DNA of 64,000 nucleotides from Pseudohaliea rubra DSM 19751 (lineage in GTDB: Bacteria; Pseudomonadota; Gammaproteobacteria; Pseudomonadales; Halieaceae). Under the pieces are notes generated by a model that saw only the letters and a program-made list of their open reading frames with translations, was not told the origin of the DNA and searched no databases. Position numbers and translations under genes: made by a program. The stretch covers positions 1-64,000 of the forward strand of contig NZ_KN234751.1 of NCBI RefSeq assembly GCF_000764025.1. Direction: 5' to 3'. Shown here piece by piece: positions 42,920-47,673 of the stretch (the first letter of the stretch is position 1; the number at the start of each line of letters is the position of its first letter).

Positions 42920-44803
42920 ATGAGCCAGTTACAGCATCACGCGAAACGACTCCTCTGCGCCGCAATCGGTATTGCCCTTGCCGGGCAGGCGGTGGCCCAG
43001 GACGTTCCCACGGATTTCCGTTCGGCCGTAAATCAGGCCGTGAACAGCAACCCCCGGGTCACCGCGGAATACTACAACTTCGAAGCGTCCCGGGAGTCCG
43101 AGCGGGCGGCCCGCGGTGGCTATCTGCCGAGTGTCGATCTGTCCTCGGAGATCGGTCGTGAACAGCGCGACACCCCGCTCGTGGATCTCGGCAGTTACAC
43201 GCGTGACGCGACCCGCTTCACGGTGACACAGATGCTCTTCGACGGCTTCGAGACACGGAATACGGTCGCAACCCGTAATTTCGAAAAGCTATCCCAGTAC
43301 TACAACCTGCGCAGCATTTCCGAGGCAGTGGGCCTCGAGGCGGCCCAGGCCTACCTCGACACGCTGCGCTTCCAGCAGCTGGTGACCTTCGCCGAGGACA
43401 ATTATGTCTATCACCGGCAGATCTACAATCGCATCCAGGAGCGGGCGAGCGGCGGTGTCAGCCAGGGCGTGGACCTGCAGCAGGCCGAGGCGCGTATCGC
43501 GCTCGCCGAGTCCAACCTGGTCACAGAGCTTCAGAACCTGCACGACGTCCGGGCGCGCTACCAGCGCGTGATCGGCGACCTGCCCGCTGAGGGCCTGTCC
43601 ATGCCGACCCTGCCCGACGCGCTGATCCCGGCGCTTCGCGGCGCGGCGCTCGATGTGGCCTACAGCCGCAGTCCTGTGATCAACGCGGCGATCGAGAACC
43701 TGCGCGCCAGCCAGGAGTTCCTCAATGCGCGCAATGCGCCGTTCATGCCCCGCATCGACCTGCGTTACCGCAACGAGGTGGAGCACGACACCGACGGCTT
43801 CGACGGCACCTATGATGAGGAGGCCATCGAGCTGGTAATGAACTACAACCTGTTCCGCGGCGGCTCCGACAGTGCCCGCAAGCGCGAAGCCTACGCGCTT
43901 TATAATGCGGCCATGGAAGAGCGCAAGCAGGCCTGCATCAACGTCCGCCAGGAAACGATGATCGCCTTCAACGACATCCAGGCCCTCACCGAGCAGGTCC
44001 AGCTCCTGGAGCGCAACCTTGCCTCCCAGGATCAGACGCGCCGCGCCTACCAGGACCAGTTCGACATTGGTCAGCGGACGCTCCTCGATCTCCTCGACAG
44101 CCAGAACGAGTTCTTCGACACCCAGCGGGCCTACATCACGGCGCAGACCAATCTTATTGCCGCCCGCGCCGAGACGCTGGCCAATATGGGCCTGCTGCTG
44201 GCTGCCCTCGAGCTCGACGGGCTGAATGCCGAGCAGATCGAGGCGCTCAAACTCGACTTCAGCCGTGACCCGGATGACGAGAATGCCCAGCCGCTCTGTC
44301 CGCCGGAGCCGCCGCCGGGCATCGACATCGACCGAGCGTCGCTGTTCGACCGCCTCGACAAGCGCGCGGCCAACGGTGGCGGTGCTACCGAGGAGTCCAA
44401 AGCTGCGCTTGCCGCCATGGCGTCCGGCAGCTCCACTTTCGTGCCTGCCGGCAGCAACATGTACGAGGCCGAGGTGGACGTGACTTTTGCCATCGACTCC
44501 GCCGAGATCACCTCTGAGTTCGACGAGGAGATCCGGCGCGCCGGCGCTTTCCTGCGCGAACACCCGGACGTAGAAGCCATCATCGAGGGCCATACCTGCA
44601 ACATGGGTGAAGAGTCCTACAACGAGTGGCTCTCCCAGCAGCGGGCCGACGCGGTACGCAGTAAGCTCGTGGAGGACTACGGCGTCGATCCGGCGCAGGT
44701 GGTGGCCGTGGGTCGCGGTGAGGGTGCCCCCAAGGCGGACAACAGCACTGCCGAGGGCCGGGAGCGCAACCGCCGCGTGGAGATCGTCCTCAGCGCCAAC
44801 TGA
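42920..44803 (+). CDS. Outer-membrane channel of the TolC/LapE family fused to an OmpA C-terminal domain
   Basis: This 627-residue protein has a signal peptide (1-27, cleaved near AVAQ), a TolC/OEP domain (about 30-430) and a Pro/acidic linker (about 455-510). An OmpA-like peptidoglycan-binding domain (about 515-627) follows. The TolC part resembles type I secretion partners such as LapE/AggA (AQAYLDTLRFQQLV, RTLLDLLDSQNEFF). The OmpA part keeps YNEWLSQQRADAVR with its Arg, but where OmpA/Pal have GHTD it reads GHTC. Fusing the channel to a wall anchor would tie the exporter to peptidoglycan. It diverges from lapG, and the Lap ABC and adaptor genes are absent here, so the pairing with LapDG is by position. 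Confidence 0.92.
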   Translation: MSQLQHHAKRLLCAAIGIALAGQAVAQDVPTDFRSAVNQAVNSNPRVTAEYYNFEASRESERAARGGYLPSVDLSSEIGREQRDTPLVDLGSYTRDATRFTVTQMLFDGFETRNTVATRNFEKLSQYYNLRSISEAVGLEAAQAYLDTLRFQQLVTFAEDNYVYHRQIYNRIQERASGGVSQGVDLQQAEARIALAESNLVTELQNLHDVRARYQRVIGDLPAEGLSMPTLPDALIPALRGAALDVAYSRSPVINAAIENLRASQEFLNARNAPFMPRIDLRYRNEVEHDTDGFDGTYDEEAIELVMNYNLFRGGSDSARKREAYALYNAAMEERKQACINVRQETMIAFNDIQALTEQVQLLERNLASQDQTRRAYQDQFDIGQRTLLDLLDSQNEFFDTQRAYITAQTNLIAARAETLANMGLLLAALELDGLNAEQIEALKLDFSRDPDDENAQPLCPPEPPPGIDIDRASLFDRLDKRAANGGGATEESKAALAAMASGSSTFVPAGSNMYEAEVDVTFAIDSAEITSEFDEEIRRAGAFLREHPDVEAIIEGHTCNMGEESYNEWLSQQRADAVRSKLVEDYGVDPAQVVAVGRGEGAPKADNSTAEGRERNRRVEIVLSAN

Positions 44804-44880
44804 GCGACGCTGCGGGGCCGGCTGGGTATTTTCCTCTCCGGCAAGACCCGGTAGTGAGAGCAGGGCAGTGTGAATTGTCG

Positions 44881-44953
44881 GGGTGAGGACGGGATAGTTC
44901 TCTCAGTCGCTCCCCGTTACGCGTTTGGTGAGAGAACTATCCCGCCCTCACCC
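44881..44953. repeat. Long hairpin A: 25-bp inverted repeat with 23-nt loop
   Basis: Arms 44881-44905 and 44929-44953 match at 24 of 25 positions; the outer parts read GGGTGAGGACGGG and CCCGCCCTCACCC. The inner arms and loop (44904-44930) are repeated in inverted orientation inside the next hairpin (45024-45050, 24 of 27). It lies 77 bp after the TolC-OmpA stop. Confidence 0.85.
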
Positions 44954-44988
44954 CTTGCGCCTCGCGTTCTTCCGGCATGGTCGAGTTT

Positions 44989-45077
44989 CCCGGGCGGTAG
45001 GAGCGGCTGCGGTCGCATGCCCCCACCAAGCGTGTATCGGGGAGCGACTGGGGCCATGCGACCGCAGCCGCCCCGGG
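44989..45077. repeat. Long hairpin B (REP-like), loop complementary to hairpin A
   Basis: A perfect 17-bp inverted repeat, GCGGCTGCGGTCGCATG (45003-45019) with its complement at 45055-45071, is extended inward by CCCC/GGGG and outward by CCCGGGCGG/CCGCCCCGGG. The 5' side includes GTAGGAGCGGCTGC, which recalls the GTAG-headed REP elements of Pseudomonas and Stenotrophomonas. The loop region 45024-45050 is the reverse complement of 44904-44930 with three mismatches. Two hairpins with unrelated stems therefore share one loop sequence in opposite orientation. Confidence 0.8.
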
Positions 45078-45091
45078 ATCAGATGAACCAG

Positions 45092-45124
45092 AAAAAAGCC
45101 CGCTATGATGAAGCGGGCTTTTTT
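45092..45124. terminator. Strong bidirectional intrinsic terminator
   Basis: A perfect 13-bp inverted repeat, AAAAAAGCCCGCT (45092-45104) and AGCGGGCTTTTTT (45112-45124), encloses a 7-nt loop. The GC stem has an A-run on one side and a T-run on the other, so it works on both strands. It serves the TolC-OmpA gene on the plus strand and the convergent TonB receptor on the minus strand. Confidence 0.93.
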
Positions 45125-45141
45125 CCTTCCATCTTCCGCTG

Positions 45142-47673
45142 TCAGAAGCGCGCGGTAAGCCTCGCGCCCCAGATCTGGCCCTCCTCGAGGTACTGGGCGT
45201 GCGAGCCCACCAGCACCGGGATGTCGAAGCTCTGCATGAATACCTCCTCGTCGAAGATATTCCGCCCATAGGCCATGAGCTCCCACCAGTCGCCGCGCAG
45301 CCCCAGGCGCAGGTTGACCTTGGTGTAGGAGTCGATAACGTCGAGCGGGTCATTGTCGCCCGCTGAATTGAACGCATCCCGGTAATTCGCTTCGCCGCTC
45401 ATGAAGAATTCCATGTCGCCGATCGGGCGCACGTAATCAAAGAGGAAAGAGGCGCTGTAGTCCGAGGCATAGAGCGTCGGCTCGCCGGACAGATCGTTCT
45501 CGCTTACGCCGATGGGGCTGCCACAGAACGGGTCGGCGTCGATCTGGATTGCAGTGCACGGACCGTCAGCGAAATCGTCATAAGTGGCATCCAGCCAGGC
45601 GAAGTTCAGGCCCAGGCGCAGCGCGTCCGTGGCCTGCCACATACTATCGACCTCAAGGCCGAGGACCTCTGAGCTCGCGGCGTTCTTTACGTTGAAGCCG
45701 AGGCCCTCGAACACGGCGGTCTGCAGATCGCTGTACTCCGTGTAGAAAAGAGCCCAGTTGAAGCGCATGGCGCCGTCAAGCAGCGTGTGTTTGCCGCCGA
45801 GCTCGTAGGCGTCCACCTCTTCGTCGTCGAACTCGAAGTCGTTGTTCGGCAGCGTGGGGTCATAGCAGCCGGTCACATCCACAGTGAAGTCCGGATTCGG
45901 TGCGCAAGGGAAGGCACCCTGGTCGAGGCCCCCCGGTTCGCCGTCATCGGCGGCGGTGAAGCCGCCGCTCTTGAAGCCCTGGGAGAAGCTTGCGTAGAGC
46001 ATGGAGTCCTGGCCGACGTCCCACTGCAGGTTGAAGGAGGGCAGGAGGGCGTCTGTCTCCCGGTCCTCGTCATAGTCGTAGGCATAGGCGTTGAAACTCG
46101 TGGCCTGAATCAGGCCGAGAAAGTAACTGTCGCTCGGCGCCCCCAGCCCGGTGTTACTGTCCGAGAGAAACTGTCTGCTGAGGACATCCTTCGTCTCTTC
46201 CGTATAGCGCACCCCTACGGTGAGGCGCAGCTTGTCAGTGAAATTGAAGGTGCCCTGACCGAAGAGAGCCCAGGATTCAGATTCGAGCTGATAGAAGCGA
46301 TTGCGGGCCACCTGGTTCGGGCTGTAGGCCCCGTCGGTCTGCACAGCCAGGAGGTTCTGCGGCAGTGCTGCCGGCGGGATTGCGCCGCCGCTGAGCGCGT
46401 TCGACAGGAACTGCGGGAACAGTCCGTCGAAGTTCGTGTCGAGGGTTACCCGCCGGTCGAAGTCAAGGTCCGAGGTGTCGTAGTAGAAGCCGGCAACATA
46501 GTCGAAGAACTCGCCGCCCGGCGAAGTGATGCGAAACTCCTGGCTCCACTGCTCGAAACGCTGATCATCGTCCCGGTGGATGAACTGCAGGGGCAGCCAG
46601 TCGACGTCAGCGCCATCGACGTAGCGGTACTCGGAGTAGCCGGTTACGGAGGTGAGCGTGTGCCCCCCGACGTTCCAGTTCACTGTAAGTGCGGCGTTGT
46701 CGATGTCGTTCTCGCTGCTGTCGGGATTGATGCCGATACCGGGCCCATCTGCCCGGGACTGGCCGTAGCCGTTATCCTTGAAAATGGTGAATTCCTGCTG
46801 GGTGATGTCGCCGTAGTCGGGGAAGAACATGTCCATGATCGAGTAGGCGGTGTCGGCGAAGGCAGAGCGGTTGGGTACAAACGCATCGCGCTGCTGGGCA
46901 TCCAGGAAGATCTTGCCCGTGGTGGTGGCGCCTACGCGCTCGTAGTCGGAATTACTGTATTTAAAGTTGATGTCCAGATCGTCCGTGGGCTGCCAGGCCA
47001 GCGTGAGCCGATAGGTGAGCTCGTCGATCTGGCCCTCACTGTCGCCGAGGAGGCTGTTGCGTGCGTAGCCATCGGTTTCCCGAGCCTTGAAGGCGAGGCG
47101 GGCGGCGAGCGTGTCGGTGAGGGCGCCGCTGAGGTAGCCCTCGTAGAGCTCGCCCTCGTTTGATTCAAAGGAGGCGGCGAGCTGACCGTTGAACTCCTCG
47201 CCCATATCCGGAGACGCGCTGGTGATGTTGATCGCCCCTGCCACGGTATTGCGACCGAAGAGCGTTCCCTGAGGACCGCGCAGCACTTCCACCCGCTCGA
47301 CGTCCAGGAAGGCAGCGCGGTACTGGCGACCGCGGCCCATGTAGACGCCATCGATATACATGCCCACGGACTGCTCAAAGCCCTGATTGTTGCCGGAGCC
47401 GACGCCCCGCATGTAGATATTGGTGTTTACCGGCGCATCAGCAATATGCAGGTTGGGTACGTAGTCGGCAAGGGCCGCCATGTTCGGGATGCCTGCATCC
47501 TGGATCTGCTGACCCTGGATGGCGGATACGGAGATGGGTACGTCCTGCAGGCTTTCGGCGCGCTTCTGCGCCGTAACGATGACTTCTTCGAGTTGCTGGG
47601 CGCCGGCGATGGGCGCGGCGAGGGAAACGGACAGAGCCGCTGCGAGCGGCACTTTGCGGAAAGGCGCAGCCAT
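45142..47673 (-). CDS. TonB-dependent receptor
   Basis: This is an 843-residue outer-membrane receptor. A signal peptide (about 1-25) leads to LEEVIVTAQKRAESL (TonB box and start of plug), then VEVLRGPQGTLFGRNTVAG in the plug and a long barrel ending in LTARF. It has the size and motifs of proteobacterial receptors for complex organics. The ATG at 47673 follows AGGGG. It lies 139 bp downstream of the amidase on the same strand, so receptor and amidase may share a substrate; there is no further evidence for which. Confidence 0.93.
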   Translation of the reverse strand: MAAPFRKVPLAAALSVSLAAPIAGAQQLEEVIVTAQKRAESLQDVPISVSAIQGQQIQDAGIPNMAALADYVPNLHIADAPVNTNIYMRGVGSGNNQGFEQSVGMYIDGVYMGRGRQYRAAFLDVERVEVLRGPQGTLFGRNTVAGAINITSASPDMGEEFNGQLAASFESNEGELYEGYLSGALTDTLAARLAFKARETDGYARNSLLGDSEGQIDELTYRLTLAWQPTDDLDINFKYSNSDYERVGATTTGKIFLDAQQRDAFVPNRSAFADTAYSIMDMFFPDYGDITQQEFTIFKDNGYGQSRADGPGIGINPDSSENDIDNAALTVNWNVGGHTLTSVTGYSEYRYVDGADVDWLPLQFIHRDDDQRFEQWSQEFRITSPGGEFFDYVAGFYYDTSDLDFDRRVTLDTNFDGLFPQFLSNALSGGAIPPAALPQNLLAVQTDGAYSPNQVARNRFYQLESESWALFGQGTFNFTDKLRLTVGVRYTEETKDVLSRQFLSDSNTGLGAPSDSYFLGLIQATSFNAYAYDYDEDRETDALLPSFNLQWDVGQDSMLYASFSQGFKSGGFTAADDGEPGGLDQGAFPCAPNPDFTVDVTGCYDPTLPNNDFEFDDEEVDAYELGGKHTLLDGAMRFNWALFYTEYSDLQTAVFEGLGFNVKNAASSEVLGLEVDSMWQATDALRLGLNFAWLDATYDDFADGPCTAIQIDADPFCGSPIGVSENDLSGEPTLYASDYSASFLFDYVRPIGDMEFFMSGEANYRDAFNSAGDNDPLDVIDSYTKVNLRLGLRGDWWELMAYGRNIFDEEVFMQSFDIPVLVGSHAQYLEEGQIWGARLTARF

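Follow-up and report, generated by a model that had tools for sequence, protein, structure and literature searches.

Introduction

Hairpin sites with a conserved loop and an exchangeable stem are found at the rolling-circle origins of CRESS viruses and some plasmids. The iron-responsive element is an RNA hairpin with a fixed loop on a covarying stem, and is read by a protein. Dispersed bacterial palindromes are commonly taken for decaying mobile repeats.

The closest described chromosomal systems are the GTAG REPs, BIMEs and REPINs with their RAYT (TnpA-REP), which are dispersed intergenic hairpins with two-class inverted doublets and a strand-specific ssDNA hairpin logic. The GTAG REPs have stems of 5–13 bp and loops of 2–20 (PMC3733652). 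The same source describes the TIR repeats of TIRYTs as palindromic terminal repeats longer than REPs, in dispersed families.

Here, we examine a pair of hairpins in a window, meaning the whole 64,000-nt stretch of DNA analysed, of Pseudohaliea rubra and the family to which they belong. The family resembles the REP systems in the above features, but has a loop of fixed sequence, lacks a RAYT in its own genome and keeps single copies at orthologous sites. It resembles the TIR repeats too, by description rather than by sequence, but its own genome has no Y1 gene. By analogy, it shares the fixed loop and the free stem sequence with the rolling-circle origins, whereas it is chromosomal, many-copy and without a match in viral contigs, phages or plasmids.

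Results

The hairpin pair in the window

The loop pattern matches the window at only two places, one on each strand, where shuffles expect none. An inverted-repeat search found each of them inside 26-nt arms, at 44880–44905/44929–44954 for hairpin A (96%) and 45000–45025/45049–45074 for hairpin B (92%). The preliminary description had noticed two adjacent hairpins with complementary loops, and both the inverted repeats and the 27-mers were recovered. The two loops are reverse complements with three differences, and their complementarity is a consequence of the same loop being carried in inverted orientation. Kissing between the loops, which the preliminary description had suggested for a transcript, is not the reason for the loop conservation, since single hairpins elsewhere keep the same loop. 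The parts are as follows.

44880–44903, minus strand: 3′ arm of hairpin A in the sense of the minus strand, the loop-consensus strand; 24-bp stem with 24/24 pairs including one G·T on the minus strand
44904–44930, minus strand: conserved 27-nt loop of hairpin A, CACCAAACGCGTAACGGGGAGCGACTG on the minus strand (loop-pattern match)
44931–44954, minus strand: 5′ arm of hairpin A in the sense of the minus strand, 'TCTCT' stem class (inverted repeat and pairing)
44955–44999, no strand: middle of the doublet, of low conservation among copies with a mean identity of about 0.5 (copy comparison)
44997–45000, plus strand: GTAG at the foot of hairpin B, present in many GCCCC-class copies of the own genome and not in other lineages
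45000–45023, plus strand: 5′ arm of hairpin B, 'GCCCC' stem class (inverted repeat and pairing)
45024–45050, plus strand: conserved 27-nt loop of hairpin B, CACCAAGCGTGTATCGGGGAGCGACTG (loop-pattern match)
45051–45074, plus strand: 3′ arm of hairpin B, 22/24 Watson-Crick pairs
45091–45125, no strand: separate 14-bp inverted repeat with A/T runs, terminator-like and outside the hairpin family (inverted-repeat search)

The GTAG that was said to head hairpin B is indeed there. RNA folding of a 211-nt stretch with both hairpins gives z = −7.3 against shuffles, and ssDNA folding of the window hairpins gives z = −5.2 to −8.4. Upstream of the pair lies a TolC/OmpA-type open reading frame (42920–44803), whose TolC match falls under the cut-off of that family. 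A TonB-receptor-like frame, so named by eye, converges from beyond the terminator-like repeat (45142–47673). No T run follows hairpin A or B as an intrinsic terminator of TolC-OmpA would have, and the repeat at 45091–45125 is likely the ordinary intrinsic terminator of the flanking gene.

One loop on many stems in the own genome

The 27-nt loop pattern, with up to three mismatches allowed, occurs at 68 places in the 3.2-Mb genome and the reversed pattern at none. The core thus belongs to a dispersed genome-wide family, as the preliminary description had thought possible. Read with their flanks, 59 of the 68 instances form at least 18 of 24 Watson-Crick pairs, and 18 of the 68 have perfect stems of 24/24. 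The remaining nine comprise five with a longer loop (..GACCCggccgggtcaggCTG), two with mixed-class arms, one whose stem is displaced by a single base and one decayed copy. A covariance-model search of the same genome found 76 hairpins.

The stems covary. Among 56 own hairpins, double changes occur at 22 of the 24 pairs, 96.9% of the aligned cells are paired versus 74.2 in the shuffle, and 302 cells are compensatory versus 86.6 in the shuffle and 27–60 in slid alignments.

Head-to-head doublets combine two stem classes, ..TCTCT and ..GCCCC. Of the 33 sites read, 18 hold a divergent pair and 2 a divergent triple, 11 have a single hairpin, and the remaining two are a convergent and a tandem pair. 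By heuristic gene calls, the inverted-doublet and intergenic character of the GTAG REP/BIME is present, in that 20 of the 33 sites are a divergent pair or triple and one site lies within a called gene. Among the own doublets, the middle is about 0.5 identical and the loop 0.86, and the highest identity of any two of the 21 is at most 0.87.

Some loops are flipped within their stem, or the arms are exchanged. The longer-loop form with a self-complementary CCCGGCCGGG-like insert is seen at L013, L016, L008, L052 and L040 and also at L086, and the only copy of the same-genus genome G001 is of this form. Single hairpins with arms from both stem classes are found in the own genome (L010, L049) and in a Halioglobus MAG (L095, L124, L132), as would result if slippage between the arms had collapsed a doublet.

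Patchy spread in other bacteria

A search of 84,980 species with an exact 23-base degenerate loop pattern, own-genome records left out, gave 73 stretches. The carriers are one Halioglobus MAG, L. concretionis, L. antarcticus, other Lysobacter, Luteimonas, Thermomonas and some gammaproteobacterial MAGs. In nearly all of the stretches, the loop caps a stem, and the stem sequences are unrelated. Loop identity between lineages is 0.85–0.95, versus 0.24–0.45 for the stem, and the conserved loop on differing stems, first noticed in the window, holds across the family. Two of the 73, one from Ignavibacteriae (L091) and one from Flavobacteriales (L162), lack a stem and were taken as chance.

The stem length varies little. 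Loop-capped stems are 21–24 bp in Halioglobus, Lysobacter/Luteimonas, Thermomonas and another family of the order. Beyond 24 bp there is an abrupt loss of pairing in the own genome and in three hairpins of G268; the limit is 22 bp in the Thermomonas-like hairpins and 21 in Lysobacter/Luteimonas, and the stem pairs 20–22 are weaker in the Halioglobus group.

Surveys found the hairpin in 4 of 390 order genomes and in 1 of 369 class genomes, the own genome being counted in both. Within the genus of L. concretionis, 7 of 10 genomes carry it, at 4 to 31 copies each. One match in the order survey (G121), with three mismatches and 8/24 pairs, was taken as chance. Searches of viral contigs, plasmids and phages gave no loop match, and a phage or plasmid origin was rejected on this ground. 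An autonomous element was likewise rejected, as the clusters formed by 445 open reading frames from the 73 loci were all ordinary shared families, apart from one syntenic block.

A MITE or insertion element would leave a clean empty site with a target duplication. At icd-clpS of the same-genus G001, the doublet is absent and about 235 bp are missing, the diverged intergenic flanks leaving the ends and any target duplication unset. This absence and the patchy distribution suit a mobile element as well. A near-identical copy pair exists in Halioglobus (L105/L126, 0.96). In G018, likewise from the order survey, a longer unit occurs as two tandem copies (L179 1204–1567). There the loop caps a stem of no more than about 8 bp, and a nearby gene looks by eye like that of ribosomal protein L21.

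Copies kept at orthologous sites

Within the genus of L. concretionis, 55 hairpins were read in 40 regions of 7 genomes. For 12 orthologous hairpins at 9 loci, in 48 species pairs that are not independent and at sites chosen because both loops were found, the loop is 0.982 identical (23 differences in 1296) and the flanks 0.70. Most copies in this work were collected by loop patterns (2–3 mismatches, or the exact 23-base degenerate pattern), so the loop conservation is partly ascertained and decayed loops are under-seen. Among 160 changed stem columns in the orthologs, 64 carry changes in both arms and pair in both orthologs, 56 have a change in one arm and remain paired, and 40 are broken in one ortholog. 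The 98% loop, the 70% flanks and the compensated stem changes together mean that the copies are kept in place, and what is kept at the individual chromosomal sites is the loop and the pairing. The covariation that the preliminary description proposed to look for is present at the orthologous Lysobacter-type sites as well as in the own genome.

The first and last bases of the 27-mer also covary in this genus, being C..G in 42 and A..T in 13 of the 55 copies. Hence, the stem extends into the 27-mer, which leaves 23–25 nt of loop unpaired.

Conserved sites include hslV-xerC and rnpB-rsmI. At the rnpB-rsmI site, the hairpin is intact in 5 genomes. No remnant is found in G797 and G799, the two read of five further genomes (G796, G798 and G063 were left out). 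The interval of G799 (L240) holds an ordinary GTAG REP pair where the relatives have the fixed-loop hairpin, and the loop is absent there. At pabB-pabC, named by eye, the arms of 8 Thermomonas-type loci are homologous, and the loop has the direction of the genes in 4 of them and the opposite direction in the other 4.

Strand bias of the pairing defects

The pairing defects were scored on the strand with 5′-CACCAAGCG. In 157 hairpins, selected by a filter that had counted G·T as paired, they are G·T or T·G in 153 cases versus A·C or C·A in 21, about 7:1. The G·T to A·C count is 144:16 in a set chosen by Watson-Crick pairs alone (at least 14/20; 154 hairpins) and 186:41 without any filter (171 hairpins), while the shuffled-arm control gives about 1.2–1.4 to 1. 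Per hairpin, G·T is in excess in 97 and A·C in 4. The excess is present in every lineage and both stem classes, and the 55 hairpins of the ortholog set give 67:5. Transitions in the flanks, as a control, show no strand bias (C/T 396, A/G 371).

By heuristic gene calls, the count relative to tandem neighbours is 23:3 for sense and 26:1 for antisense loop strands. The wobbles are tolerated on the 5′-CACCAAGCG strand of each hairpin, independently of the neighbouring gene direction. In the window, the sole stem defect of hairpin A, behind the 24 of 25 pairs counted in the preliminary description, is A·C in the TolC-OmpA mRNA strand and a G·T wobble on the opposite, antisense strand. A cruciform or a corrected palindrome treats the two strands alike and an mRNA structure depends on the gene direction, so neither fits the bias. 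It therefore speaks against a structure at an mRNA 3′ end, against correction of palindromes and against a symmetric site in DNA.

Discussion

The nearly frozen loop and a stem that is free as long as it pairs point to a factor that reads the loop. We give about an even chance to the reading that the family is a strand-specific hairpin, probably in ssDNA, whose loop is read by a putative loop-binding factor. Each hairpin has a nearly invariant loop of 23–27 nt on a stem of about two helical turns, of any sequence that pairs. The working form would be the CACCAAGCG strand folded on itself, most likely as ssDNA exposed in replication, recombination or strong supercoiling. A sequence-specific factor would then read the loop, with the stem as only a holder or a ruler because its sequence is free and its length range narrow. 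A doublet has one hairpin per strand, so that either strand could present the site. Binding might then serve priming, loading, nicking, topology or mobilisation.

The family is probably more than a decayed repeat and probably works like a loop-defined single-stranded site. Unlike the usual decaying repeats, single copies here are held by selection on the loop and the pairing. A wider proposal, which we hold tentatively and at somewhat under an even chance, is a chromosomal ssDNA-hairpin code. It would consist of rare, horizontally patchy sites with a fixed loop on a sequence-free two-turn stem, read by a putative protein wherever the strand becomes single-stranded. The sites would be multiplied to 30–70 copies in some lineages and, in others, be a few that are conserved in place across species.

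The hairpin may instead be made as RNA, in its own or antisense transcripts, with the loop binding a protein or another RNA. The covariation and the wobble tolerance resemble RNA families and copies lie near highly expressed genes, but we consider this reading rather unlikely. The wobble bias is as strong for antisense as for sense loop strands, the hairpins of a doublet sit on opposite strands, and the pabB-pabC loop points equally often with and against the genes. A conserved block on the head side of the hairpin, a hint of an own promoter, was not found. Rfam gave 23 matches at E up to 1 for the window stretch, all below the gathering threshold, and no match up to E 0.01 for five other loci. 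The complementarity of the loop to E. coli rRNA (rrnB) is no better than that of shuffled loops. The narrower suggestion of a structured RNA at the 3′ end of the TolC-OmpA mRNA is not supported, as the family adjoins all kinds of genes and the G·T follows the loop strand rather than the transcribed strand. Likewise, the orientation-independent wobble bias and the both-strand placement speak against an mRNA element like the iron-responsive element. ssDNA is favoured over RNA because of the gene-direction independence, the two-strand doublets and the lack of a conserved block beside the hairpin, although ssDNA and an RNA from its own promoter look alike in these data because G·T and G·U are the same in a genome.

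The preliminary description had also considered a mobile REP/BIME family, and the doublet form is indeed BIME/REPIN-like. That the hairpins are a GTAG REP/BIME (REPIN) family mobilised by a RAYT, now or formerly, is improbable. The head-to-head doublets with two stem classes, the GTAG in one class, the intergenic sites and the patchy distribution would suit it, and a strand-specific hairpin is what a Y1 enzyme would want. However, PF01797 (Y1_Tnp) was not found in G001 or in the own genome, which is 98.8% complete in 86 contigs so that a Y1 gene in a gap is possible. Among 17 other carriers tested, 9 have a Y1 gene and 8 have none, and the 1.5-kb flanks of the 11 Y1 genes found in other carriers are without a loop copy. 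The GT[AG]G foot, present in hairpin B and many GCCCC-class copies of the own genome, is not common to the other lineages. Copies are held at orthologous sites and no two of the 21 own doublets exceed 0.87 identity. The 21–24 bp stem and the 23–27 nt loop are also outside the ranges quoted above for GTAG REPs (PMC3733652).

Two further readings are very improbable. Long palindromes without function, kept perfect by template switching (quasi-palindrome correction), would agree with the many perfect stems (18 of 68) and with the flipped loops and exchanged arms; this disfavoured reading gives no cause for G·T over A·C on one strand or for a 98% loop beside 70% flanks. A double-stranded operator or recombination core located in a palindrome by chance has slight credit as well. 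The loop is long enough for one, but such a site would need no stem, and yet the stem covaries, has a fixed length range and carries strand-biased defects.

The tests made do not place the hairpins in any named family. The exact loop strings returned 0 papers in a body of literature with few subscription papers, and text searches there, over listings and abstracts and in passages of PMC3733652, PMC2817692 and PMC6006769, found nothing on a fixed-loop hairpin family. The fixed-loop family is thus probably undescribed.

The ssDNA-hairpin reading predicts a loop-binding factor. Moreover, the wobble bias reveals the folding strand from sequence alone, and we offer the G·T/A·C ratio as a general test that tells strand-specific ssDNA or RNA hairpins from cruciforms and corrected palindromes.

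As to the neighbouring genes, copies often adjoin translation or RNA genes (L004, L006, L013, L020; L086, L094, L112, L138, L144, L157). Among the own flanking proteins scanned (30 of 64 listed), three are ribosomal (L13, L17, S1) and one is PNPase. Of 17 other loci, 6 have a ribosomal, IF3 or rpoC gene, read by eye, beside the hairpin. In two lineages, hairpins flank the gene for RNase P RNA close to rsmI (L018 1026–1741; L208 115–630), downstream of it in the own genome and on its rsmI side in the Lysobacter genus. The copy at L005 adjoins a BchE-type gene of bacteriochlorophyll synthesis, which suggests a phototrophic host.
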